The position numbers and the translations under genes are program-made. The notes below the pieces were generated by a model. That model did not search any database, was not told where the DNA came from, and was given only the letters and a program-made list of their open reading frames with translations. From a virus, in the IMG/VR virus record IMGVR_UViG_3300012920_006705, positions 1 to 20,366 of that record: 20,366 bases of DNA; one strand, given 5' to 3'. Of the stretch, positions 1 through 14,717 are shown piece after piece; positions within the stretch are counted from its first letter, which is position 1; each line of letters opens with the position of its first letter.

Positions 1-1179
1 AGTAAGCATGGATATATTATTCCTATAGATCATGAAGAAGGTATAAACGTATCAAAAGAACGTGTCTACGAACTTTTACAAGAATTTAGTACTCTATATA
101 CCGTAGATAAGAAAGAACTGCTATATCACTTTAATATACAGGGAGCTATTGATTTATCTCTGCTATATTCAATGACCAAATTCGAAAGGTTAGAATATTC
201 TAAAGAAAACTCAACTGTAAATTATTTTTACCATAAAAATAGAGATTTTATAGAAGTAAATAAATTAATTCCTATTAGTAAATTATATGAATCTTGTGAA
301 AAATTATACGATCAAGTTAAAGGAGTAGTAAAATACAAAATACCTACCGGATTTGACTTCTATAATACCACAGCTATTAATGTTTTTTACTTAATAGAAC
401 AAACCGGATTAGGAGTTTACTATGAAGCATATAATGAATTGTTTAAACCTCGTAATCCTTCATATAATACTATAGATAATACAGTTTTAACTTATTATAA
501 TCTGTATAATATCACATCTAGACCTACTAATTCATTTAATAGTGTTAATTATGCTGCTATTCCTCATTCTGAGAATCATAGGAAAGCATTTAAACCTCAA
601 AATGATTACTTTGTAGAACTAGACTTTGATGGTTACCACTTACGTTTACTTTGTGATCAAATAGATTACCCACTTAGTGAAGAATCCGCTCATAAACAGT
701 TAGCAAAGCTATACTTTGAAAAAGAAGAAATAACTGATGAAGAATATAATAAAGCAAAACAGATAAATTTTCAAGCAATATACGGTAAAATACCTGAAGA
801 GCATGCATTTTTAGAAGTTTTTGAAAAAATAGATAAGTTTATTAAAGAGTTATGGAAAGAGTTTGAAAAGAAAGGAAAAATAAAAGCTCCTATTAGTGAA
901 AAACCTTTTACTACTCAGTTGAAAGATATGCATCCACAGAAATTAATGAATTATGTTATGCAATCGTTGGAAACATCAAGAAATATACTTATATTAAAAG
1001 AAGTACTAAGGTACTTAAGAGATAAAAAATCAAAAATAGTATTATATACGTATGATGCTATTTTATTTGATTTTAGTAAAGAAGATGGAAAACAAACTTT
1101 AGAAGATATAAAAGATATACTTGAAGAAGGTAAAAAGTATCCAATAAAGTTTAAATATTCCAATAATTTAGTTTTGTAA
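1..1179 (+). CDS. Family A DNA polymerase, C-terminal part (5' end outside window)
   Basis: The frame is open from base 1, so the gene begins upstream; an internal ATG at 172 is not the likely start. The visible 392 residues form a family A (Pol I-like) polymerase domain. Motif A is ELDFDGYHLRLL with catalytic Asp at 622-624. Motif B is KQINFQAIYG near 757-786, matching the O-helix pattern K-x-x-N-F-x-x-x-Y-G. Motif C is LYTYDAILF with the second catalytic Asp at 1054-1056. A segment resembling the 'NLQNIP...R.AF' template-binding stretch precedes motif A. Oddities: the O-helix arginine before the lysine is replaced, and the usual HDE of motif C reads YDA. Any 3'-5' exonuclease domain would lie upstream, or in a separate gene as in RM378. 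It sits just before the gp32-UvsX-nuclease-helicase block, consistent with being the phage replicase. Confidence 0.85.
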   Translation, partial: SKHGYIIPIDHEEGINVSKERVYELLQEFSTLYTVDKKELLYHFNIQGAIDLSLLYSMTKFERLEYSKENSTVNYFYHKNRDFIEVNKLIPISKLYESCEKLYDQVKGVVKYKIPTGFDFYNTTAINVFYLIEQTGLGVYYEAYNELFKPRNPSYNTIDNTVLTYYNLYNITSRPTNSFNSVNYAAIPHSENHRKAFKPQNDYFVELDFDGYHLRLLCDQIDYPLSEESAHKQLAKLYFEKEEITDEEYNKAKQINFQAIYGKIPEEHAFLEVFEKIDKFIKELWKEFEKKGKIKAPISEKPFTTQLKDMHPQKLMNYVMQSLETSRNILILKEVLRYLRDKKSKIVLYTYDAILFDFSKEDGKQTLEDIKDILEEGKKYPIKFKYSNNLVL

Positions 1180-1201: not shown

Positions 1202-1651
1202 ATGGCAAATGTTGTAGCCTCCAGGTTCGATTACGATTTAGAACCTTTATATTTAAACGAAGATATGAGTAATAAACTGTTCTGTACTTTTGCTACAGAA
1301 GATTCGCTTGAGAGCGTACTTAACCAAATTCAAGAACGTTATAAGATTATCTATAATAAGATATTCGTTCTTTACTCAAAGAGTCAAGATGAGTACATTT
1401 GTACTTATAATGTAGATTTTGGTAATGTAGGAGCTTTTTTAGAAAATACAATTCTAGTCCATAGAAAAAAGGAATCTAATACTCTATATACTATTAATGC
1501 TTTAAATACTTTAATTAAAGAACTGAACGGAGGAGTTTTAGATACTACCTATAAAATAAACTGGACAGATTACAGAAATTGTATACTTCTTACCAAAGGT
1601 CCAGATCTCAAAAGGATAAATACAAAATTATACAAAATTTTAGAAATATAG
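1202..1651 (+). CDS. Hypothetical phage protein between polymerase and gp32
   Basis: This 149-residue protein is not recognised. It has no signal peptide, membrane segment or known catalytic motif. It is mixed alpha/beta in character, with an N-terminal half rich in acidic and aromatic residues and a C-terminal stretch (INWTDYRNCILLTKGPDLKR) that looks like a conserved core. It starts at an ATG 22 bases after the polymerase stop without a Shine-Dalgarno sequence. Its place between polymerase and gp32 suggests a replication accessory or regulatory role, but only by position. A RegA-like translational repressor was considered because T4 has one nearby in its replication region; I see no similarity that supports it. 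Confidence 0.75.
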   Translation: MANVVASRFDYDLEPLYLNEDMSNKLFCTFATEDSLESVLNQIQERYKIIYNKIFVLYSKSQDEYICTYNVDFGNVGAFLENTILVHRKKESNTLYTINALNTLIKELNGGVLDTTYKINWTDYRNCILLTKGPDLKRINTKLYKILEI

Positions 1652-1680
1652 TTGGATAATAGAATATTATTACCTATATT
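1652..1680 (+). promoter_or_regulatory. Phage promoter, GTTGGATAATA class, upstream of gp32
   Basis: TTGGAT (1652-1657) and TATATT (1675-1680) are separated by 17 bases, a standard sigma-70-type spacing. The 11-mer GTTGGATAATA (from 1651) and the exact spacing are repeated at 4435 and 8765, which argues for a real element. The predicted transcription start is about 27 bases before the gp32 ATG. The element begins directly after the stop of the previous gene. Confidence 0.65.
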
Positions 1681-1713
1681 ATATTAAACGTTATAATTAA
1701 AATAAGTTATACT

Positions 1714-2517
1714 ATGGATTTAAATGCGATCAAGGCAAAATTAGACGCCTTAAACAACGGTAATCAGCAGCAAGAAAAAACTGATTACACAAAAATTTTC
1801 TGGAGACCTGAATTAGGTAAACAGACAGTTAGAATTGTTCCATCGGCTTTTGATCCCACTTTTCCTTTTAAAGAGTTAAAGTTTCATTACGGTATAGGGA
1901 AGTACCCAATGGTAGCTTTATCGAATTTCGGTAAACAAGACCCTATAGAAGAATTTGTAAAGGAGCTTAAAAAGACTTCTGATAAGGATAATTGGTCATT
2001 AGCAGGGAAGCTTAACCCTAAGACTAGAATCTTTGCACCTGTAATTGTAAGAGGTGAGGAAGATAAAGGTGTGAGGTTATGGGGATTTGGTATTACCATC
2101 TATAAAGCATTATTAGCATTAGCTGAAGATGAAGATGTAGGTGATTTTACTGACGTAATCAATGGTTGGGATATGATTGTTGAACAGCAACAAGGTAACC
2201 CTTACCCTACTACATCGGTTAGAATTAAACCAAAACAATCACCATTATCGGATGATAATGATTTAGTTGAAACTTGGTTAAAGACTCAACCTAACCCAGT
2301 AGAAGTACATTCTCAATACGATTACGATTTTATTAAGAAACAACTTCAGAATTATTTGAACCCAGGATCAGCTGAGGAGAATGCTCCAGCAGCAGGTTCG
2401 GAATCAAGTACGCCAGAAAGCTCAGGAAGTCCTCAAAAGACTGACTTTACTTTGGAAACAGCTACTGCTGGCAACAAAGACACAGTTAGTAAGTTTGATG
2501 ATTTATTTAATGAGTAA
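1714..2517 (+). CDS. 32: Single-stranded DNA-binding protein, T4 gp32-like
   Basis: This 267-residue protein coats single-stranded DNA during replication and recombination. It has the gp32 layout: a short N-terminal segment with KAKLDALNN, an OB-fold core (about residues 25-215) with the FWRPELGKQTVRIVPS entry strand, a low-complexity Ser/Pro/Ala linker (about 218-245) and an acidic, aromatic tail ending KFDDLFNE. In gp32 proteins that tail recruits UvsX, the helicase loader and the polymerase. Unusually there is no cysteine at all. The segment that in T4-type gp32 carries the zinc ligands (CPxC-like) reads QDPIEEF at about residues 75-81, so the zinc site is lost. It is followed by uvsX with a one-base TAATG overlap. 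A dedicated promoter lies at 1652-1680. Confidence 0.92.
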   Translation: MDLNAIKAKLDALNNGNQQQEKTDYTKIFWRPELGKQTVRIVPSAFDPTFPFKELKFHYGIGKYPMVALSNFGKQDPIEEFVKELKKTSDKDNWSLAGKLNPKTRIFAPVIVRGEEDKGVRLWGFGITIYKALLALAEDEDVGDFTDVINGWDMIVEQQQGNPYPTTSVRIKPKQSPLSDDNDLVETWLKTQPNPVEVHSQYDYDFIKKQLQNYLNPGSAEENAPAAGSESSTPESSGSPQKTDFTLETATAGNKDTVSKFDDLFNE

Positions 2518-3587
2518 TGGCAAAGAAGAAAGAAGTACAACAAAGAGCGACCTCTGCAGTACGTAAGTCGTTCAACTTAAGCAATTTTAAAAAGAAGAAA
2601 GGTTTTTCAAACGCTTCTGTAAAGTTTAAAGAACAAGGTTGGATACCTTTATCTAAAGCTTTTCAAGATATTACTTCCCTACCCGGTATACCTACCGGTC
2701 ACATCACTCTTTTAAGAGGACACAGTGATACGGGCAAAACAACTGCCCTAATAGAAGCTGCGGTGAGTGCTCAAAAATTGGGCATTCTCCCAGTCTTCAT
2801 TATTACTGAGATGAAGTGGTCTTGGGAACATGCTAAGGAAATGGGATTAGAAGTTAACGAAGTTACTGATGCAAATGGTACTATCGTTGATTACGAAGGT
2901 CATTTCTTATATGCAGACAGAGGTACTTTAAATACTATAGAAGATGTAGCAGTATATATAGCAGATCTTATGGATGAACAAGCAAAAGGTAATCTTCCTT
3001 TTGATATGTGTTTCTTATGGGATTCTATTGGTTCTGTTCCTTGTGATCTATCAGTACGTTCTAATAAGAATAATAATGAATGGAATGCAGGAGCTATGTC
3101 TACTCAGTTTGGAAATAACCTAAATCAAAAGATTCTTTTATCTAGGAAAGAAAACTCACCTTATACGAATACTTTAGTAGCAATTAATAAAGTATGGACT
3201 ATGAAACCTGAATCACCTATGGGTATGCCTAAATTACAGAATAAAGGAGGTATGTCTATGTGGTATGATGCAACTTTAGTAGTTACCTTTGGTAATATTA
3301 CTAATCCAGGTACGTCTAAAATTAAAGCTATTAAAAATGGTATGCAAGTAGAGTTTGCTAAAAGAACTAACGTTCAGATAGAAAAGAACCATATCGGAGG
3401 AGTACAGTCTAGAGGTAGAGTTGTTATGACTCAGCATGGTTTTATACCAGATGATAAAAGAGCGATTGATAAGTACAAAGATCAGTACAAAGATCACTGG
3501 TTAAAATTAGTTGGTAGCTTAGATTTCGATCTAGTCGAAGAAGGAGATTTAGAAGAAGAAAAAATTACTACTAATTTACTTGACTAG
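2517..3587 (+). CDS. uvsX: UvsX/RecA-family recombinase
   Basis: This 356-residue strand-exchange recombinase forms filaments on ssDNA for recombination-dependent replication and repair. Walker A is GHSDTGKT (residues 68-75). The catalytic glutamate is in FIITEMKW (Glu98), and Walker B is MCFLWDSIG (Asp169). A lysine-rich N-terminus (KKKEVQQR, KKKKGFS) precedes the core. The C-terminus is acidic (VEEGDLEEE), as in T4 UvsX and RecA. A run of loop residues around 190-220 includes GGMSMWYDA-type sequence typical of the phage family. The ATG overlaps the gp32 stop by one base and has no ribosome binding site, so translation is probably coupled to gp32. Confidence 0.93.
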   Translation: MAKKKEVQQRATSAVRKSFNLSNFKKKKGFSNASVKFKEQGWIPLSKAFQDITSLPGIPTGHITLLRGHSDTGKTTALIEAAVSAQKLGILPVFIITEMKWSWEHAKEMGLEVNEVTDANGTIVDYEGHFLYADRGTLNTIEDVAVYIADLMDEQAKGNLPFDMCFLWDSIGSVPCDLSVRSNKNNNEWNAGAMSTQFGNNLNQKILLSRKENSPYTNTLVAINKVWTMKPESPMGMPKLQNKGGMSMWYDATLVVTFGNITNPGTSKIKAIKNGMQVEFAKRTNVQIEKNHIGGVQSRGRVVMTQHGFIPDDKRAIDKYKDQYKDHWLKLVGSLDFDLVEEGDLEEEKITTNLLD

Positions 3588-4606
3588 TGGCGTACGATAA
3601 TATACTAAAGAACTTAAAGCAGACCCCACCCCGAGAGCTAAATGATCACATTATGGTGATCGATGCTATGAATATGTTAATTCGTAGCTTTTCCCTGCTC
3701 AAAGCAATGAGCCCAACAGGTCACCACATAGGAGGCCTGGTTGGCTTCTTGCGATCTTTAGGATATGTTACTAGAATATTTGATCCTACTAGAGTTATCA
3801 TAGTATGGGACGGTAAAGGAGGTTCCGGAAATCGTCAAAATATTAATCCTGATTATAAAGCTCATAGAGCTACCAATAGAATAACACATTGGGGATTATA
3901 TGATACTAAACAGGAAGAAACTGAAGCACTAGTAGGTCAATTATTTAGAACTAAGGATTATCTTGAATGCCTTCCAATACATCAAATAATGATGGAAAAA
4001 TTAGAGGCAGATGATATTATAGCTTACTTAGCTCAAGAAGCTACAAATAATAAAAAGAAATTAACAATTATTTCTTCTGATAAAGATTTTTTACAGATGA
4101 TTAATAAGCATGTAGAAGTATATGCACCTGTAAAGAAAAAAGTATATACTATAGAAAATACTAAAGAAGAAATAAAAGTAATACCAGAGAATTATAATGT
4201 TGTTAAAGCACTACTAGGGGATAATTCAGACGGTTTGAGTGGAGTAAAAGGTTTAGGTATAAAAACTATAGTATCAGAATTTCCTGATATAGTAGATAAA
4301 CCTAATACTACATTAGATTACATATTTGAAGTATGTGAAAAAAATCTAGAAGGTAAAAAAATATTCTCTAAAATTATACATCAATGGGATAAAGTTGAGA
4401 CTAATTTTAAGTTAATGAATTTACACGAAAGTGTGTTGGATAATAGAGAAAAAAATACTATATTAGATATTATTAAAAGTGATGTACCTGACCTTCAAGC
4501 AGGAGCCTTTTTACATCTATTAGATTCTGATAGAATAGAAGGTATAACTAAAAATACTGAAGGTTGGTTAGAGAACTTTAGGGGTTTAACGGTTTTTAAA
4601 AAATAG
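3587..4606 (+). CDS. rnh: 5'-3' exonuclease of FEN family, T4 RNase H-like
   Basis: This 339-residue 5' nuclease removes RNA primers and flaps from lagging-strand fragments. Metal-binding acidic residues of the PIN/FEN fold are visible: Asp26 (MVIDAMN), Asp75 (IIVWDGK), Glu140/Asp142/Asp143 (LEADDIIAYLA), Asp165/Asp167 (ISSDKDFLQ) and Asp212/Asp215 (LLGDNSDGLSGVKGLGIKT). The last segment is the helix-3-turn-helix DNA-binding motif. The start is GTG at 3587, overlapping the uvsX TAG by one base; this is the only non-ATG start I assign. A promoter of the GTTGGATAATA class lies inside its 3' end (4436-4464). The position between recombinase and helicase fits lagging-strand processing. Length is close to T4 RNase H (about 305) with modest extensions. 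Confidence 0.9.
   Translation: MAYDNILKNLKQTPPRELNDHIMVIDAMNMLIRSFSLLKAMSPTGHHIGGLVGFLRSLGYVTRIFDPTRVIIVWDGKGGSGNRQNINPDYKAHRATNRITHWGLYDTKQEETEALVGQLFRTKDYLECLPIHQIMMEKLEADDIIAYLAQEATNNKKKLTIISSDKDFLQMINKHVEVYAPVKKKVYTIENTKEEIKVIPENYNVVKALLGDNSDGLSGVKGLGIKTIVSEFPDIVDKPNTTLDYIFEVCEKNLEGKKIFSKIIHQWDKVETNFKLMNLHESVLDNREKNTILDIIKSDVPDLQAGAFLHLLDSDRIEGITKNTEGWLENFRGLTVFKK
4436..4464 (+). promoter_or_regulatory. Phage promoter, GTTGGATAATA class, inside rnh and ahead of helicase gene
   Basis: TTGGAT (4436-4441) and TATATT (4459-4464) are spaced by 17 bases, identical to the elements at 1652 and 8766. It lies in the coding sequence of the 5' nuclease, about 150 bases before the helicase ATG. It could give the helicase its own transcript. 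Because it is within a gene, chance preservation by the encoded residues (VLDN..) cannot be excluded. Confidence 0.5.
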
Positions 4607-4612
4607 GTTATT

Positions 4613-5959
4613 ATGACATTAAAAAGTCTACAACAGTACGGTAAAGCATTTCAGTTAAAAGTGCTAGGGTCGTTACTTACTGATAAAAAATTCTTACTTA
4701 ACGTTAGAGATGTACTATATCCAGATTATTTTGATGCAGATTCTCATAAATGGATTATTACACAAATTATAGAATACTTTGATCAATACCATACTATTGT
4801 TACTATGGATGTTCTTAAAGTAGAACTTCATAAAGTAGAAAATGAGGTATTACAAGTAGCGTTGAAAGAAGAGTTAAGAAATTCTTATGCAGCTTCTCAA
4901 GATGATCTTGATTATATTCAAGAAGAGTTTACTAATTTTTGTAAAAATCAAGAGATGAAAAATGCTATTTTAAATTCTGCTGATTTACTTAAATTAGGAG
5001 ATTTTGATGGTATAAGAAACTTAGTAGAGAAAGCTATCAAAGCAGGAATGGATAAAAATATAGGACATGAATATAATAAAGATATTGAAACTAGGTATAG
5101 GGTTGATTACAGGCCTACTATTCCTTCTCCTTGGCCGATACTTAATGAAGGAATTCAAGGAGGCTTCGGACCGGGGGACTTAGGAATAGTTTTTGGTAGT
5201 CCGGGAGGAGGTAAATCTTGGACTATGGTTGCAATAGCTGCACATGCAGTTCAATTAGGATATAAAGTTAATTACTATACTTTAGAGTTAGGAGAAGATT
5301 ATGTCGGTAAAAGATTTGATTGTTATTTCACTGGATATAATATTGACGAAATAAATAAACATAGAGAAGACGTTCAAACCTACGTTAATAATTTAAAAGG
5401 TAAGTTAATAGTAAAAGAATACCCTCCTAAAGGAGCATCTATTTCTACTATTAAAGCTCACGTACAGAAATGTATAGATATGGATCATAAACCTGATATG
5501 ATTATTATTGATTATGTAGACTATTTAAGAGCTCCATCTAAGAGTAAATACTCAGAACGTAAAGATGAAATTGATGATAATTTTATAGCTACTAAAGGTT
5601 TAGCTAAAGATTTAAAAATACCAATCTTAACACCTTCTCAAGTAAATAGAATGGGTGCTAGAGATTCAGTTATTGAAGGAGATAAAGCAGCAGGATCTTA
5701 TGATAAGATGATGGTTGCTGATATGTGTTTATCTTTATCTAGAATGAAGGAAGATAAAGTACTGGGAACTGGTAGAATACATGTTATGAAAAATAGGTAT
5801 GGTCAAGACGGTATGACTTATAATATTAAGATGGATACTAATAATGGTCATATTGAATTTGAAGGTAAAGCCGACCCTTCTGAATTAGTACCTGACGAGT
5901 CAAAACCTGCGTTTAATTTAGATAGCGCAACTATGTCAAAAATATTTGAAAAAAAGTAA
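4613..5959 (+). CDS. 41: Replicative DNA helicase, DnaB/T4 gp41-like
   Basis: This 448-residue hexameric helicase unwinds DNA 5'-3' at the fork and partners with primase. The N-terminal domain (about 1-150) is helical, as in DnaB. The RecA-like domain has Walker A GSPGGGKS (195-202), the catalytic glutamate region YYTLELGED (about 221-229), and Walker B MIIIDYVDYL (Asp300). Further DnaB-type motifs are TPSQVNRMGARDS and GRIHVMKNRYGQDG, which carries the trans-acting arginine region. The start lies seven bases after the nuclease stop with only a weak AGG upstream. It is the last gene before a terminator, so it closes the replication operon. Primase and helicase loader were not seen in this window. 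Confidence 0.92.
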   Translation: MTLKSLQQYGKAFQLKVLGSLLTDKKFLLNVRDVLYPDYFDADSHKWIITQIIEYFDQYHTIVTMDVLKVELHKVENEVLQVALKEELRNSYAASQDDLDYIQEEFTNFCKNQEMKNAILNSADLLKLGDFDGIRNLVEKAIKAGMDKNIGHEYNKDIETRYRVDYRPTIPSPWPILNEGIQGGFGPGDLGIVFGSPGGGKSWTMVAIAAHAVQLGYKVNYYTLELGEDYVGKRFDCYFTGYNIDEINKHREDVQTYVNNLKGKLIVKEYPPKGASISTIKAHVQKCIDMDHKPDMIIIDYVDYLRAPSKSKYSERKDEIDDNFIATKGLAKDLKIPILTPSQVNRMGARDSVIEGDKAAGSYDKMMVADMCLSLSRMKEDKVLGTGRIHVMKNRYGQDGMTYNIKMDTNNGHIEFEGKADPSELVPDESKPAFNLDSATMSKIFEKK

Positions 5960-6004
5960 AAAAAAATATCCAGGAACATGAATATATATGATATTTATTT
6001 GAGA

Positions 6005-6036
6005 GTCCTTGATAGAATCCTATCAGGGATCTTTTT
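6005..6036 (+). terminator. Rho-independent terminator after helicase gene
   Basis: An 11-base-pair stem (6005-6015 with 6020-6030, two G-T pairs) closes a four-base AATC loop and is followed by CTTTTT. It separates the replication genes from the ribonucleotide reductase genes and is the only clear hairpin terminator in the window. The surrounding 107 bases otherwise hold only a doubtful 30-codon reading frame. Confidence 0.75.
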
Positions 6037-6066
6037 ATCTAACCCACTTTTAAATAAGAAATATAT

Positions 6067-7044
6067 ATGAAAAAAAACATATTCGAACCCAGCGAAGATG
6101 TTAGAGGAAATGATTACCCTCATTTGCTAAGGTATGCAAATGTTATATGGGAAGCTTTCTGGACACCTGAACATTTTGACTACGATAGAGATGTAAGAGA
6201 TTTTAAAACTAAGTTTAAACCTCACGAACAGGAAGCTATGAAAAGATCAATGCTTTGTATAGGAGTAGTTGAAAATAAAGTTAAAACATCCTGGGCTAGA
6301 GTAGATATTAGATTACCAAAAACTGAAATAGCTGATGCAGGTTTTGTATTTGCTGGTAATGAAGTAGTACATAGAAGAACTTATAAACAGGGATTAGATT
6401 TATTAGGATTAGAAGATGTTTTTGAAAACGTAATGGATATACCGCAAATTGCCGGTAGAGTAAAATACTTAAATAGATACCTAGAAGGGTATACTTCCAG
6501 GTCTAATAAAGAGTTTACTAAATCCTTAATTCTTTTTTCGTTATTAGTAGAAAATGCAAGTTTATTTTCTAACTTTTTAACTATATCAGCATTTGGTAAA
6601 TATAAGAATATGTTTACTAACTTTACAACTGTAGTTAATGCTACAAGTAAAGAAGAAGCAATCCATGCGCAGTTTGGTGCTGAACTAATTAAGATAATTA
6701 AAGAAGAAAATCCTGAGTGGTTCGATCAAGAAATGGAAGACAAAATTAGAAGAAATATCAGAAAAGCTTACAAAGCAGAAGAAGAATTAATAGATTGGGT
6801 ATTTGAAAAAGGAGAATTAGACTTTATGCCTAAAGCTATAATAAAAGAATATACTAAACAAAGATTAAACCACGGATTAGAGTTGATAGGTTATGAAAAA
6901 GAATATGAAGTTGATAAAGAATTATTAAAACCGACTGAATATTTTGATAGAATGGCTAAAGCTCCAATAGCATTTGATTTTTTCGCACAAAAAAGCACCG
7001 ATTATAATAAACAAAATTTAATTACAGAAGACGCATGGGACTAA
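6067..7044 (+). CDS. nrdB: Class I ribonucleotide reductase, beta (radical) subunit
   Basis: This 325-residue subunit houses the dimetal-tyrosyl radical cofactor that drives reduction of ribonucleotides by NrdA. Ligand candidates by comparison with E. coli R2 are Glu69 (VVENK), Glu99 and His102 (NEVVHRRTY), Glu162 (LVENASLF), Glu197 and His200 (EEAIHAQF). The radical tyrosine is Tyr106, at the exact E-x-x-H-x-x-x-Y spacing. The first ligand is Glu where E. coli has Asp84; Glu is found there in class Ic enzymes, but those lack the tyrosine. The C-terminal tail (STDYNKQNLITEDAWD) is the expected docking peptide for NrdA. The ATG follows AT-rich sequence without a Shine-Dalgarno. The nrdA start overlaps its last ten bases, and the order B-A is opposite to T4. 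Confidence 0.93.
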   Translation: MKKNIFEPSEDVRGNDYPHLLRYANVIWEAFWTPEHFDYDRDVRDFKTKFKPHEQEAMKRSMLCIGVVENKVKTSWARVDIRLPKTEIADAGFVFAGNEVVHRRTYKQGLDLLGLEDVFENVMDIPQIAGRVKYLNRYLEGYTSRSNKEFTKSLILFSLLVENASLFSNFLTISAFGKYKNMFTNFTTVVNATSKEEAIHAQFGAELIKIIKEENPEWFDQEMEDKIRRNIRKAYKAEEELIDWVFEKGELDFMPKAIIKEYTKQRLNHGLELIGYEKEYEVDKELLKPTEYFDRMAKAPIAFDFFAQKSTDYNKQNLITEDAWD

Positions 7045-8753
7045 AGTTACAGTGGCTCAGAGATACTGAGCAAAAAGAAATGTTACAAAGAGGTTATTTA
7101 GAGAAAGATGAATCTCCAGAGCAAAGATTTCAAACTATATGTGATACAGTCCAAAAATACTCTAATAAATTAGCTACTACAGACGAAGCAAGAGAATATT
7201 TAAAAGATATAGGTAAAAGATTTGAAAAGTATGTTTCTAAAGGATGGACTTCTTTTTCTACTCCTGTCTTAAGGTCTTTTGGTTCTGAATATAATTTACC
7301 TATCAGTTGCAACCATTCAATTATAGAAGATTCTATAGACGGCATATACAGAAGATTTTATGAAACTGGTATATTAGCTAGTAGAGGAGCAGGTACTGCT
7401 GTAAACGTTTCTGACATAAGAGAGATAGGGTCTCCTATAAGATCAGGAGGTGAAGCAAATAGTATAATGGAATGGATTGAGCTTTACGCAGATATGATGA
7501 GTAAAACTGCTCAAAATTCTCAAAGAAGAGGGTTTATAACATTTTACTGTAATGCAGATCATCCTGAAATTATGGATTTCTTAGATATTGGTACTGAAAG
7601 AATACCTAAAGATAAACAAAGATTTTTAACAACAGTTACTACAGCAGTAGTTTTACCTAAAGGTTTTAGAGAAGCATTAAAATCAGGAGATAAAGAAAAA
7701 AGAAAAATATTTACCAAGATACTTAATACTAGAAAAGAAGCAGGTTTTCCTTATATCTTAGATGTAGAAAATTCTAATAAAGGAATATGTAAAGCTTATG
7801 AGGATAAAGGATTAGAAATACGTAATGCTAATATTTGTGCTGAAGCAATAGAATATGCTGATTATGAGAAAACTTTTGCTTGTTGTTTATCTTCTATAGT
7901 TGCTTATTACTGGGATGATATAAAAGAAGATCCTAACTTTTTATTCGATATGAATATTATGTTAGATTGCGTAATTGAAGAGTATATAGAAAAAGGAAAG
8001 AATATACCTGGAATAGGTCCTGCTATTAAATTTGCAGAAGAACATAGAGCTATAGGATTAGGAATATCAGCATTCCATTCTTATTTACAAAAAAACTTAG
8101 TAGAATTTGGTTCTTTAGAATCTATGAAAATTAATAACGATATTTTTTCTAAAATGAGAGCCGAAGGAGATAGAGCTTCTAAATGGATGGCTAAACATTT
8201 CGGAGAACCTAAGATGTTAGTAGGTTATGGAGAACGTAATACAAGTAGAATGGCTCAAGCACCTAAAAAGTCTACTAGTTTTATAGATGGAGGAGTAACT
8301 ATGGCTTTTAGCGAAGGTATAGAACCACATAAAATAAACTACGGCGAAAAAATGGTAGCTAAAATTCAAGTTGAATGGAAAAATCGAGAATTAGAAGCGC
8401 TACTTAAAGAAAAAGGTAAAGATACTCAAAAAGTTTGGGATAGTATACTACGCTATGGTGGTTCAGTACAACATTTAGACTTTTTAACTGACCATGAAAA
8501 AGCAGTTTTTAAAGTGTTTCATGAAATATCGCAAATAGATGTAATTAATTTAGCTGCTCAAAGACAAAAACATATAGATATGGGACAGTCTATCAACTTA
8601 GCCGTACATCCATCAGCACCTCCTAGAGATGTTATTAAATTACATTTAGAGGCTTTTGATAAAGGAATTAAATCCCTTTACTATCAGTATAATTTGAATG
8701 CTGCACAACAATTTTCTCAAGAGCTACTTACATGTAGTTCATGTGAAGGGTAA
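7035..8753 (+). CDS. nrdA: Class I ribonucleotide reductase, alpha (catalytic) subunit
   Basis: This 572-residue subunit reduces ribonucleoside diphosphates. Active-site residues are present: Cys92 (ISCNHS), the N-x-C-x-E triad Asn266/Cys268/Glu270 (NANICAEA), the partner cysteine Cys284 (ACCLSS) and the radical-transfer pair Tyr549/Tyr550 (SLYYQYN). The extreme C-terminus has the redox pair Cys567/Cys570 (TCSSCEG), which would be re-reduced by a thioredoxin such as the one at 14457. The N-terminal ATP-cone is absent: only about 70 residues precede the first active-site cysteine, against about 220 in E. coli NrdA. Overall activity control by dATP is therefore probably missing, a common trait in phage enzymes. 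It overlaps nrdB by ten bases. Confidence 0.93.
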   Translation: MGLKLQWLRDTEQKEMLQRGYLEKDESPEQRFQTICDTVQKYSNKLATTDEAREYLKDIGKRFEKYVSKGWTSFSTPVLRSFGSEYNLPISCNHSIIEDSIDGIYRRFYETGILASRGAGTAVNVSDIREIGSPIRSGGEANSIMEWIELYADMMSKTAQNSQRRGFITFYCNADHPEIMDFLDIGTERIPKDKQRFLTTVTTAVVLPKGFREALKSGDKEKRKIFTKILNTRKEAGFPYILDVENSNKGICKAYEDKGLEIRNANICAEAIEYADYEKTFACCLSSIVAYYWDDIKEDPNFLFDMNIMLDCVIEEYIEKGKNIPGIGPAIKFAEEHRAIGLGISAFHSYLQKNLVEFGSLESMKINNDIFSKMRAEGDRASKWMAKHFGEPKMLVGYGERNTSRMAQAPKKSTSFIDGGVTMAFSEGIEPHKINYGEKMVAKIQVEWKNRELEALLKEKGKDTQKVWDSILRYGGSVQHLDFLTDHEKAVFKVFHEISQIDVINLAAQRQKHIDMGQSINLAVHPSAPPRDVIKLHLEAFDKGIKSLYYQYNLNAAQQFSQELLTCSSCEG

Positions 8754-8765
8754 TTCACTGTTAAG

Positions 8766-8794
8766 TTGGATAATAAAAATTAATTTCGTATATT
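8766..8794 (+). promoter_or_regulatory. Phage promoter, GTTGGATAATA class, upstream of glycan cassette
   Basis: TTGGAT (8766-8771) and TATATT (8789-8794) with a 17-base spacer match the elements at 1652 and 4436 in sequence and spacing. It lies in the short gap after nrdA. The predicted transcription start is only about eight bases before the ATG at 8809, so the mRNA would be nearly leaderless. It probably drives the small gene and the carbohydrate genes behind it. Confidence 0.6.
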
Positions 8795-8808
8795 TAGTAA
8801 GAAAAGTT

Positions 8809-9000
8809 ATGAAAAAATTAAAAGGACTAGGAGATGTGATATTTATAATAACAAAGTACACCGGAATAAGGTGGCTTGTTAAAAAGGTATGGGGAGAAGA
8901 TTGTGGTTGTGATGAAAGGCAGGAAGTTCTTAATGATTTAGTACCTTTTAAAGATAAAGATAGAGTTATAGAAAAACCGAAACCGACACCAAAGTTATGA
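8809..9000 (+). CDS. Small conserved-looking protein with CGC-DER motif
   Basis: This 63-residue protein begins MKKLKGLGDVI and contains EDCGCDERQEVLN near residues 31-43, then a charged Lys/Pro tail. I recall small proteins with a 'KGLGD...CGC.ER...LN' pattern in marine T4-like phages, of unknown function; that is memory, not a search. The C-x-C pair could bind metal or be redox active. An in-frame ATG at 8698 exists but lies inside nrdA, and the promoter at 8766-8794 makes 8809 the better start. The stop overlaps the next ATG (ATGA), so it is coupled to the glycosyltransferase gene. It has one moderately hydrophobic helix (DVIFIITKYTGI) but no clear membrane span. Confidence 0.7.
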   Translation: MKKLKGLGDVIFIITKYTGIRWLVKKVWGEDCGCDERQEVLNDLVPFKDKDRVIEKPKPTPKL

Positions 9001-10280
9001 CAATTAAAAATGGTACAATATTTGTACAAATTGCAAGTTATAGAGATCCAGAATTAAAACCAACATTAGTCGATTTATTAGATAAGGCTGATAATCCTGA
9101 TAGATTAAAAGTTTGTATAGCATGGCAACATACCCCTGAAGATGAATGGGATACGTTAGATGAATATTTAGATGATGATAGATTTATTATCATTGATATA
9201 CCTCATACTGAAACTAATGGTACTTGCTGGGCTAGAAATACTATACAACAAAAGTATAACGGAGAAGATTATACTTTACAGTTAGATTCTCATCATAGAT
9301 TCGTAAAAGGATGGGATAGTAAATGTATAAGAATGTTAAAACAGTTACAGAAAAAAGGACACAAAAAACCTTTATTAACTGGTTATATACCTTCTTATAA
9401 CCCTAAGAATGATCCTGAAGAAAGAGTCGATTCTCCTTGGAAAATGGATTTTGATAGATTTACACCCGAAGGAGTTATATTTTTCTTACCAGCTACTATT
9501 GATGATTGGAAAGAAAGAAACGAACCAGTACCTGCCAGATTCTTTTCAGCTCACTTTACATTTACTTTAGGTATATTTTGTAATGAAGTACAACACGATC
9601 CTAAATATTATTTTCATGGAGAAGAAATTGCATTAGCAGTAAGAGCATATACTCACGGTTATGATTTATTTCACCCTCATAGAATAATTGCATGGCATGA
9701 ATATACTAGAGTAGGAAGATCTAAACATTGGGATGATGATGATTCATGGGTAGATAGAAATAAAACTACCTTTTATAGACTTAAAGGACTATTAGGTACT
9801 GATGGTACTGTATGTACTCCTTGTATGAAAAAACAATTAGTTCCTTATTACTTAGGTGAAGAAAGAACACTAGCAGATTATGAAAAATATGCAGGTATAA
9901 GATTTAATGATAGAGGAATACAGCAGTATACTTTAGATAAGGTTGGATATCCTCCTAATCCAGAAGTAGAAGATTATGAAAATTCATTTCATAAAGTATT
10001 TAGACATTGTATCGATATACATACTAATGATGTGCCTGAAAAAGATTATGACTTTTGGGCAGTAGCATTTCATGATGAAAACGGTAAAGATATATACAGA
10101 GAAGATGCTTCAAAAGAAGAAGTAGCTAATCTAATAGCTACACAGAAAGATGGATGGATAAATCTTTGGAGAACTTATACAGGTCCACTTCCTTCAAGTT
10201 GGAGTGTATGGCCTTATTCTAAGAGTAAAGAATGGTGTAATAGATTAAGTGGTAATTTAGGAATAGAAAAAAATGGCTAA
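8997..10280 (+). CDS. GlcNAc-transferase-type glycosyltransferase with extra C-terminal domain
   Basis: The first ~280 of 427 residues match the 'Glycosyltransferase (GlcNAc)' family (Skp1-type, GT-A fold). It opens with IFVQIASYRDPEL, a family hallmark. The metal/nucleotide-sugar motif is QLDSHHRF (Asp97-Ser-His99). A later block HGEEIALAVRAYTHGYDLFHP followed by AWHEYTR is also typical. It probably transfers GlcNAc or a related sugar from UDP-sugar, acceptor unknown. The last ~115 residues (from about 310) form an additional region with many Trp and His residues that I do not recognise. The start is an ATGA overlap with the small gene upstream. The carbamoyltransferase start overlaps its last eight bases, so the two products are probably made together. 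Confidence 0.85.
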   Translation: MTIKNGTIFVQIASYRDPELKPTLVDLLDKADNPDRLKVCIAWQHTPEDEWDTLDEYLDDDRFIIIDIPHTETNGTCWARNTIQQKYNGEDYTLQLDSHHRFVKGWDSKCIRMLKQLQKKGHKKPLLTGYIPSYNPKNDPEERVDSPWKMDFDRFTPEGVIFFLPATIDDWKERNEPVPARFFSAHFTFTLGIFCNEVQHDPKYYFHGEEIALAVRAYTHGYDLFHPHRIIAWHEYTRVGRSKHWDDDDSWVDRNKTTFYRLKGLLGTDGTVCTPCMKKQLVPYYLGEERTLADYEKYAGIRFNDRGIQQYTLDKVGYPPNPEVEDYENSFHKVFRHCIDIHTNDVPEKDYDFWAVAFHDENGKDIYREDASKEEVANLIATQKDGWINLWRTYTGPLPSSWSVWPYSKSKEWCNRLSGNLGIEKNG

Positions 10281-11856
10281 TATAGCGTTTTACGGGTCTC
10301 ATAATGCTGCTGTAGCTGTAGAACAAAATGGTAAAGTTTTAACAGTTATAGAGATAGAAAGATTTCTAAATACTAAAAATGCAGGGTATGGACAATACCT
10401 TATATCATATACTCGTCCAAAATTAATTAATTATATTCTAGATTATATCTATAAAACCTATGGTATAAAAACATACGATACATGTTATTACCAGAATACT
10501 GATACAATAGAAGGTGAAAAAGGAAAAGTTCATTACGAAAGATTAATACCTGCTAAAAATTATGTAGATTGTTTACATCATTATAGTCATGCAGCAAGCG
10601 GTTTTTATCAAACTGATTACGACAATGCTTTAATAATATCGTTTGATGGAGGAGGAAACGATGGGTATTTTAATATATACCATGCTAAAGATAGAAATAG
10701 TATTGAAATACTTTTTAAAGATAATATAGATTTAGGTTTTCCTTATATGATTTTTGGTAATTATTTGAATGATATCAAAATGGAACCTGCTCTTAATATA
10801 GGTAATTTAGTTTACTCAGGAAAATTAATGGGATTATGTTCTTACGGTAAAGTAAATAAAGAATGGTTACCACATTTTAAAGAATTTTATTTTTCTAAAC
10901 CTGATGGTGAAAACTATCTTGGTCTGTTAGAGATATTATCTGAAAAAACTGGAATAAAATTCGATGTTAATAAAAGGTTAGAAGATCAAATAGCTTATGA
11001 TGTTGCAGCAACTTCTCAAGAAGCATTTGAACAAGCATTTTTTCAGGTTACTAAACCTTATATAGAAAAATATCCTGATATACCTATTATCTTAGTAGGA
11101 GGTTGTGCATTAAATATTATACTTAATAGTAAAGTTAAGAAAAAATTCAAAAGAGAAGTATTTGTACCGCCTAATCCTAACGATTGCGGGTTAGCTTCTG
11201 GTATGATATTAGATCATATAAAACCTAAAAAAGCTATTGATTTAACTTATTCTGGAATAGAAGTTTTAGATAGAGATATGTTAATGTATCACGTAGAAAA
11301 CAAAAGAGGAAATGAAGTAGACTTTAAAGAACTATCTAAACATTTAAATGAAGGTAGCATAGTAGGAGTAGTAAGAGGACAAGCAGAACATGGACCTAGA
11401 GCATTAGGTAATAGAAGTATTTTATGTAACCCAGGTATTGATAACATGAAAGATCTTCTTAATAAAAAAGTTAAAAATAGAGAATGGTATCGTCCTTTCG
11501 CTCCTGTATGCAGATTAGAAGATGTTAATAAGTATTTTAACTTTGAGGGAGAAAGTAGATTTATGAGTTTCTGTCCTACTGTAAAAGCTAAATGGAGAAA
11601 AAAACTTTCTTCTATTACTCATGTAGATAATACTGCAAGAATACAGACAGTTACAAAAGAACAAAATGAATGGTTGTATAATTTACTCACTGAGTTTGAA
11701 AAAATATCAGGATATGGAGTTTTATTAAATACATCATTTAACGTTAACGGTAAACCTATATTATCAAGCTATTCAGATGCACTAAAAGTATTCTTAGAAT
11801 CTGAAATGGATAAATTAGTTTTAGAAAATTATTATTTTAAATGGAAACACGTTTAG
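10273..11856 (+). CDS. NodU/CmcH-type O-carbamoyltransferase (first copy)
   Basis: This 527-residue enzyme should transfer a carbamoyl group from carbamoyl phosphate through an adenylated intermediate to a hydroxyl, usually on a sugar. The N-terminal Kae1-like domain has the metal-binding HHYSHAA motif (residues 102-108), ISFDGGGNDG (122-131), GKLMGLCSYGK (183-193) and VGGCALNIILN (275-285). The C-terminal domain has EHGPRALGNRSIL (372-384) and WYRPFAPV (405-412). All main blocks are intact, so the enzyme looks active. The usual N-terminal 'HHDSAA' block is degenerate (GSHNAAVAV), unlike the second carbamoyltransferase at 20014. It overlaps both neighbours, which are glycosyltransferases, so its acceptor is most likely a sugar made by this cassette. 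Confidence 0.9.
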   Translation: MANIAFYGSHNAAVAVEQNGKVLTVIEIERFLNTKNAGYGQYLISYTRPKLINYILDYIYKTYGIKTYDTCYYQNTDTIEGEKGKVHYERLIPAKNYVDCLHHYSHAASGFYQTDYDNALIISFDGGGNDGYFNIYHAKDRNSIEILFKDNIDLGFPYMIFGNYLNDIKMEPALNIGNLVYSGKLMGLCSYGKVNKEWLPHFKEFYFSKPDGENYLGLLEILSEKTGIKFDVNKRLEDQIAYDVAATSQEAFEQAFFQVTKPYIEKYPDIPIILVGGCALNIILNSKVKKKFKREVFVPPNPNDCGLASGMILDHIKPKKAIDLTYSGIEVLDRDMLMYHVENKRGNEVDFKELSKHLNEGSIVGVVRGQAEHGPRALGNRSILCNPGIDNMKDLLNKKVKNREWYRPFAPVCRLEDVNKYFNFEGESRFMSFCPTVKAKWRKKLSSITHVDNTARIQTVTKEQNEWLYNLLTEFEKISGYGVLLNTSFNVNGKPILSSYSDALKVFLESEMDKLVLENYYFKWKHV

Positions 11857-14420: not shown

Positions 14421-14449
14421 TTGTTTTATAAATAAATTTTAACTATATT
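14421..14449 (+). promoter_or_regulatory. Possible promoter of related architecture before thioredoxin gene
   Basis: TTGTTT (14421-14426) and TATATT (14444-14449) have the same 17-base spacing as the three GTTGGATAATA elements, but the -35-like part is different. It sits in the 44-base gap after the fused glycosyltransferase gene. The predicted start is within a few bases of the ATG at 14457. Weak evidence alone in AT-rich DNA. Confidence 0.35.
14427..14434 (+). promoter_or_regulatory. T4 late promoter-like TATAAATA
   Basis: A perfect match to the T4 late promoter box TATAAATA lies 22 bases before the thioredoxin ATG, in an intergenic gap. In T4 the box is read by the phage sigma-like gp55 with gp33 and the clamp. 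Such eight-mers are not rare in AT-rich sequence, and it overlaps the spacer of the alternative promoter at 14421-14449, so at most one of the two readings may be functional. Confidence 0.3.
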
Positions 14450-14456
14450 ATATATT

Positions 14457-14717
14457 ATGAAAGATGTAATTAAATTTCACGCCGAATGGTGTTCTCCATG
14501 CAGATATTATAAGACTGTATGGAATGAAGCTAAAGAAAAACATGGAGCTGTCCATAACTTTATCGAAGTAGATATTGATAACGATAATACTGGATTAGCA
14601 GAAAAGTTTGGAGTAAGAAGCGTGCCTACTACTGTAGTAGTAAAAGAGAATAAAGATTTTCAAAAGCAGGTAGGAGCTTTAGCATATGGAGATCTAGAAA
14701 AATTAATTAAAGGATAA
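14457..14717 (+). CDS. Thioredoxin-like protein
   Basis: This 86-residue protein has the thioredoxin active site WCSPC (residues 11-15) and the cis-proline motif SVPTT (Pro57). It lacks the first beta strand and helix of full-length (about 105-residue) thioredoxins but keeps the essential core. By analogy to T4 NrdC, it probably re-reduces the C-terminal cysteine pair of the phage NrdA. It could also serve as reductant for other enzymes in this region. It starts at an ATG without Shine-Dalgarno, about 23 bases after a TATAAATA box. The stop overlaps the next start (TAATG). It lies about 5.7 kb from nrdA, separated by the glycan cassette, so co-expression with the reductase is not obvious. Confidence 0.88.
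   Translation: MKDVIKFHAEWCSPCRYYKTVWNEAKEKHGAVHNFIEVDIDNDNTGLAEKFGVRSVPTTVVVKENKDFQKQVGALAYGDLEKLIKG

Follow-up and report, generated by a model that had tools for sequence, protein, structure and literature searches.

Three identical copies of a bipartite repeat in a virus record of 20,366 bases (G+C = 30%; this whole stretch is called the window here) probably belong to one promoter class, TTG-N20-TATATT, that immuto-like Flavobacteria phages use for their pre-late genes. The repeated motif itself is very probably a real promoter with dozens of uses per genome. On the evidence of sequence comparison, the class exists, is strand-specific, rigidly spaced and located before genes, and is selected on the DNA even within a coding gene; it looks lineage-specific, because two host-type genomes and six unrelated Flavobacteriia phages have no N20 peak.

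The window is related to immuto, a complete phage of 160 kb. Its helicase gene has 74.9% DNA identity to four Flavobacterium phage immuto records, and the two share the gene order DNA polymerase, single-strand DNA-binding protein (SSB), UvsX/RecA-like recombinase, exonuclease, helicase, and ribonucleotide reductase. Among the IMG/VR matches listed is a longer contig (34,814 bases) whose SSB and helicase proteins show 100% identity to those of the window. Two related records, G003 (191 kb) and G004 (177 kb), are nearer to the window than are immuto and two others, G013 and G014.

The three exact copies of GTTGGATAATA-N13-TATATT lie on the + strand at 1651-1680, 4435-4464, and 8765-8794. An earlier note on this DNA held that they are hard to explain by chance, and this is borne out: allowing up to three mismatches gives four matches (0.59 expected), a number reached in none of 100 shuffles; among 200 simulated first-order Markov sequences, none contained the 11-mer more than once, and in none was any 11-mer repeated three times at 13 nt before TATATT. 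The same note saw a strongly conserved -35 region here, which for the 11-mer is not supported. Relatives keep (G)TTG(G/C) only and GATAATA varies; the 11-mer is rejected as a -35 box because relatives retain TTG alone. GATAATA, common to the three copies in the window, appears to be a coincidence. The conserved core in the sequences compared is TTG-N20-TATATT rather than the 11-mer, and the layout is of the Bacteroidetes -33/-7 type (TTG, 20 bp, TATATT) rather than sigma-70 -35/-10. This core occurs five times on the gene strand of the window (967, 1652, 4436, 8766, and 14421) and twice on the opposite strand.

Spacing is the clearest signature of the class. For TTG-Nx-TATATT on the gene strand of immuto there are 40 sites at x = 20, and the counts for the remaining spacers between 8 and 33 are 0-8 each; the opposite strand has 3 at x = 20 and 1-7 elsewhere. 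In 150 related loci, which overlap and were pooled after deduplication by sequence context, 274 sites fall at x = 20 compared with 5-50 at other spacers, and the opposite strand has 28 at x = 20. Contigs pooled by the full exact motif alone, kinship apart, supply 83 further N20 sites versus 15-33 at other spacers. With the gene strand of each record defined as that of its SSB, helicase, or sigma-like gene, gene-strand and other-strand counts in whole records are 40/3 for immuto, 34/3 for G003, and 33/2 for G004, and 29/6, 10/4, 10/4, 8/2, 17/1, 25/3, 28/3, 23/4, and 52/3 in nine further records; a reversed-pattern control in these twelve gives 0-6 per strand.

A scan of relatives, which the earlier note had proposed, finds the motif enriched before genes in immuto and the related records. 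In immuto 33 of 40 sites end no more than 60 nt from an annotated gene start (background 9%). For ORF-called starts the corresponding figures are 18/34 in G003 (background 7%; the other 16 are farther than 60 nt from any start) and 23/33 in G004 (background 6%). TATCTT serves as a variant of the -7 box in immuto, with 14 occurrences at N20, of which ten have a gene start no farther than 60 nt away, and 7 on the other strand. The same motif thus stands before many genes on one strand, as in a phage temporal class.

The earlier note placed two of the copies in gaps right before genes and the third about 150 bases before the helicase gene. The copy at 1651 needs a small correction, as its first G completes the TAG stop codon of ORF 1202-1651; the class site proper (1652..1680, + strand, predicted start near 1687) is an exact copy and is retained in relatives. 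It precedes the gene for the gp32-like SSB (1714..2517, + strand; PHROG 1192, E 2.9e-18). A site of the form TTG-N20-TA[TC]ATT is found before the SSB gene in 48 of 48 relatives examined (47 of 80 SSB loci plus immuto), with 26 distinct spacers; the boxes and their distance are therefore conserved while the spacer changes. One of the 80 loci (L063) was omitted from the spacer comparison.

The copy at 4435 lies inside the exonuclease ORF (3587..4606, + strand; PHROG 107, E 1.5e-31), its end 148 nt from the ATG at 4613 of the replicative DnaB-like helicase gene (4613..5959, + strand; PHROG 19, E 4.2e-74). This site (4436..4464, + strand, predicted start near 4471), an exact copy, would serve the helicase, and codon choice argues for its function. 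Exactly one TTG-N20-TA[TC][ACT]TT occurs within 260 nt before the helicase in 75 of 81 helicase loci (all 80 plus immuto, duplicates kept) and none in the other six; random windows from the same loci contain one site in 191 of 2400 cases. It takes one of two positions upstream of the helicase: at 138-162 nt, where it falls in the exonuclease gene, or at 16-32 nt. Among 84 distinct helicase-upstream regions, 81 have a site, 38 in the exonuclease gene and 43 just before the helicase. Leu-284 of the exonuclease, whose codon bears the TTG of the site, is encoded by TTG in all 38 regions with the in-gene site and in 0 of the 46 others. Where the two genes adjoin, 38 regions combine the in-gene site with TTG and one combines a near-helicase site with another codon; 42 regions with separated genes have the near-helicase site and another codon, and the remaining three have no site and another codon.

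Counting only distinct variants (34 of 67 adjacent and 39 of 59 separated), Leu-284 is TTG in 32 of the 34 variants in which exonuclease and helicase adjoin; in the 39 with the genes at least 60 nt apart it is always leucine and never TTG (TTA 34, CTA 4, CTT 1). TTG is a minority leucine codon in these genes (494 vs 2586 for TTA). The groups partly follow descent and are therefore not independent events. The plain reading of this pattern is selection at the DNA level for a promoter inside the exonuclease coding gene.

Placement directly before a gene stands for the copy at 8765. The site (8766..8794, + strand, predicted start near 8801), an exact copy with a counterpart in L020, precedes a small ORF of 63 aa with no assigned function (8809..9000, + strand); a PHROG search with its longer reading, 8698-9000, gave no match. 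Five of 35 distinct regions downstream of NrdA in relatives contain a match, two of them at the same place, L005 and L020; L005 is apparently the same phage as the window, and the spacer in L020 differs. Two further class sites match the core. The site at 967..995 (+ strand) falls within the ORF for DNA polymerase, ahead of the ORF at 1202. Immuto has a site at the same place (1114, with 204 nt to the next gene), but its conservation may reflect no more than that of the protein sequence. The site at 14421..14449 (+ strand) precedes a thioredoxin-like gene whose mRNA may be nearly leaderless, since the predicted start (near 14456) is one base before the ATG at 14457.

The large ribonucleotide reductase subunit (window 7035-8753) was compared with its counterparts in 35 relatives: identity is about 33% (32.7-34.6%) in 33 of them and 97.7-99.7% in L005 and L020, so that the gene has probably been replaced. 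After the reductase, the window has glycosyltransferase and Nol-like carbamoyltransferase genes at 8997-11856, and immuto has nucleases and a lectin-domain protein there. In the gap between the helicase gene and nrdB (5991-6028), a late-like motif, GATATTTATT, is followed directly by a terminator-like hairpin with a T run; this pair is present in L020 too and in variant form in L022.

The earlier note saw in the repeats one temporal promoter class; the class stands, enriched before genes, and its temporal nature is plausible from gene content. Thirty-five of the 40 TATATT sites of immuto lie at 0-77 kb, and because they concentrate outside the structural-gene half, a pre-late class serving replication, nucleotide metabolism, and small early-type genes is plausible. 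Eighteen class sites fall in a small-gene region at 60-77 kb (10000-27000 of locus L155). Many small genes there each have a site in which the sequence held in common around the start is longer, TATATTTAG(G/A)TAT; 17 of the 19 such strings in immuto are at 60-77 kb and none is on the other strand. The sites with this extension are possibly an early subclass.

Genes of the late region carry another motif, [CA]TATTTATA, which would be the late promoter and may be read with a phage protein resembling sigma region 2. The motif occurs before genes in immuto 28 times against 3 on the other strand; 24 of the 28 are within 60 nt of a start and 19 lie at 77-160 kb. The strand bias recurs in G003 (34/9) and G004 (43/4). 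A conserved protein annotated as hypothetical (immuto 78130-78828; 28130-28828 of L155, also 161-841 of L477) has some likeness to sigma region 2, in divergent form, and is a candidate for the late sigma of these phages. Its matches to Sigma70_r2 are below the curated cut-off, with E 0.016 and 0.019 in two of six records; across the family, sampled at 31 of 80 loci, 12 of 31 members match below that cut-off (best E 0.0072). The predicted fold (mean pLDDT 76, pTM 0.51) aligns to sigma region 2 with Z up to 9.5 and rmsd 2.3 over 90 residues, although for a mostly helical model such Z is possible by chance. Foldseek with this model gave a best E of 2.1, PHROGs gave no match, and a PDB sequence profile search gave no sigma match.

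We lean towards the host polymerase with its primary sigma, perhaps modified, as the reader of the pre-late class, because the same core serves the small-gene region, which is probably expressed first. The host multi-subunit RNA polymerase would treat the class as a Bacteroidetes -33/-7 promoter, in which TTG is the -33 contact and TATATT the -7 box that melts; the near-obligate TTG and the frequent TTC at -16 to -14 probably compensate for the T-6 G-5 that the host consensus has and the class lacks. It is not obvious that host sigma could read the class alone, since the host TTG peak is weak and at 19 and six unrelated flavophages lack the class. The intergenic pattern TTG-Nx-TAnnTTTG in a Flavobacterium genome (G001; 800 kb of 5.7 Mb, except for whole-genome N20 counts) has its weak peak at x = 19 (20 vs about 7). 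TTG-N20-TATATT is near control in the whole genomes of Flavobacterium sp. Leaf82 (101/105 vs 79/94) and Christiangramia (27/44 vs 30/38), and there is no N20 peak in the six phages, among which Cellulophaga phi38:1 has four sites on one strand (phi38:1 and phiST covered by their first 50 kb).

It is possible, and we hold this tentatively, that the class is a true promoter class read only by a polymerase form that the phage specifies, through either a divergent phage sigma or an activator redirecting the host sigma, for which T4 MotA/AsiA is a functional parallel. The rigid 20-bp spacing, the TTC at -16 to -14, and the lack of TG after TATATT, none of them seen in the host set, favor such a reader, as does the absence of enrichment from the two host-type genomes and the unrelated flavophages. 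T-16, T-15, and C-14 are present at 87, 87, and 85% of immuto sites (n = 39); C-14 reaches 51% in 267 sites of relatives vs 14% in 249 host TAHHTTTG sites; and TATATT at spacer 20 is followed by TG at 0 of 107 sites in three phage records. However, a search of six phage records for sigma region 4 families gave no match even with E allowed up to 1, and the core also serves the small genes at 60-77 kb of immuto, probably expressed before phage factors unless these are injected. A wider proposal may likewise be entertained, as a conjecture we would not yet favor: immuto-like phages would have their own promoter code distinct from that of the host, with rigid TTG-N20-TATATT, frequently preceded by TTCn, and TTTG never present. 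A host polymerase altered by the phage would read this code, and in one branch the 20-bp spacer would accommodate an entire intrinsic terminator.

That the motif is instead a binding site, such as an operator or replication element, is very improbable. Some SSB-site spacers do contain an inverted repeat: the mean stem over 26 variants is 5.0 vs 3.0-4.0 in the null (ten variants have stems of 4 or less), and the SSB site of the window has an AT-rich inverted repeat only. Against a binding site, the spacer sequence varies, other sites have no inverted-repeat excess, the orientation relative to genes is single, and the site stands 16-32 nt before the helicase when outside the exonuclease gene. 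Chance repeats in AT-rich DNA, for which the low G+C of the window and the apparently coincidental GATAATA might speak, are virtually eliminated for the core motif by the shuffles, Markov sequences, spacer peak, strand bias, and codon choice.

The spacer does hold a specific structure in one group of phages. At 10/54, 10/56, and 11/63 sites (TAT[AC]TT) of immuto, G013, and G014, respectively, the spacer contains a GC-containing stem-loop followed by a T run, and the 5' arm includes or adjoins TTG. The average for shifted controls is 0.05-0.22 (maximum 2), and 0 of 27 opposite-strand sites have such a hairpin. The nested kind makes up 31 of the 88 gene-strand terminators detected in these three records. 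No nested terminators were found in G003 (0/40) or G004 (0/39; 0/79 together), and the window sites have no GC-containing nested hairpin. If the structures are what they seem, a nested element, about 45 bp long, would both terminate a transcript and initiate the one after it. Spacer hairpins as a general feature of the class were rejected: non-SSB sites in relatives of the window have a mean stem of 3.37 vs 3.19 when shuffled, and at -6 kcal/mol hairpins are no more frequent at class sites (12/267) than at TTG sites at large (6.3%). Even in immuto the mean energy of -3.35 is little lower than the -2.20 and -2.53 of controls, with 9 of 40 sites standing out.

The literature searched, outside which most subscription papers fall, contained no account of promoter classes in Flavobacterium phages. 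For a phage group widespread in aquatic habitats, the analysis offers a map of pre-late and late promoters that can be tested. It also offers what appears from sequence to be a clear example of selection for a promoter within coding sequence, and candidate parts with which to drive expression in Flavobacteria. Should host sigma be unable to read the class alone, an unknown phage transcription factor is indicated.

Comeau, Arbiol and Krisch reportedly described PeSLs in T4-like phages in 2014. These composite promoter-terminator motifs, the only lead found in the literature on nested terminator-promoters, are known from T4-like phages, as far as the available portion of the source describes them (PMC4503421). 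The likeness lies in a promoter joined with a stem-loop and repeated within one genome; in immuto, G013, and G014, promoter and stem-loop terminator share one intergenic element, as in a PeSL, at 31 of 173 sites. There the hairpin lies between the -33 and -7 boxes.

Immuto resembles T4, with its early, middle, and late promoters, in that distinct classes precede different sets of genes. The T4 late promoter motif, TATAAATA, is short, AT-only, and without an upstream box in the accessible part of its description (PMC1524935), and the immuto late-type motif is like it in these respects; T4 gp55 would be the analogue of the candidate late sigma. The promoter sequences differ, and the immuto late sigma is only a candidate.

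Another close comparison is with the primary-sigma (sigma-ABfr) promoters of Bacteroidetes, TTTG at -33 and TANNTTTG at -7. The -33/-7 layout is known for the phylum (PMC6847099, PMC7366714), and in F. johnsoniae, according to the part of the account available, T-12 A-11 T-8 T-7 T-6 G-5 are nearly invariant and the -33 motif is faint (PMC6847099). The phage class shares the bipartite layout, T-12 A-11 and T-8 T-7, and TTG about 20 bp upstream of the -7 box, where the TTG peak is found. It differs in that its spacing is fixed at 20, whereas Flavobacterium host promoters have a weak peak at 19; its TTG is near-obligate, whereas the sigma-ABfr host -33 is faint; and its sites lack the T-6 G-5 that TANNTTTG includes. 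Host promoters nearly always have TTTG, an ending that the phage class is without.
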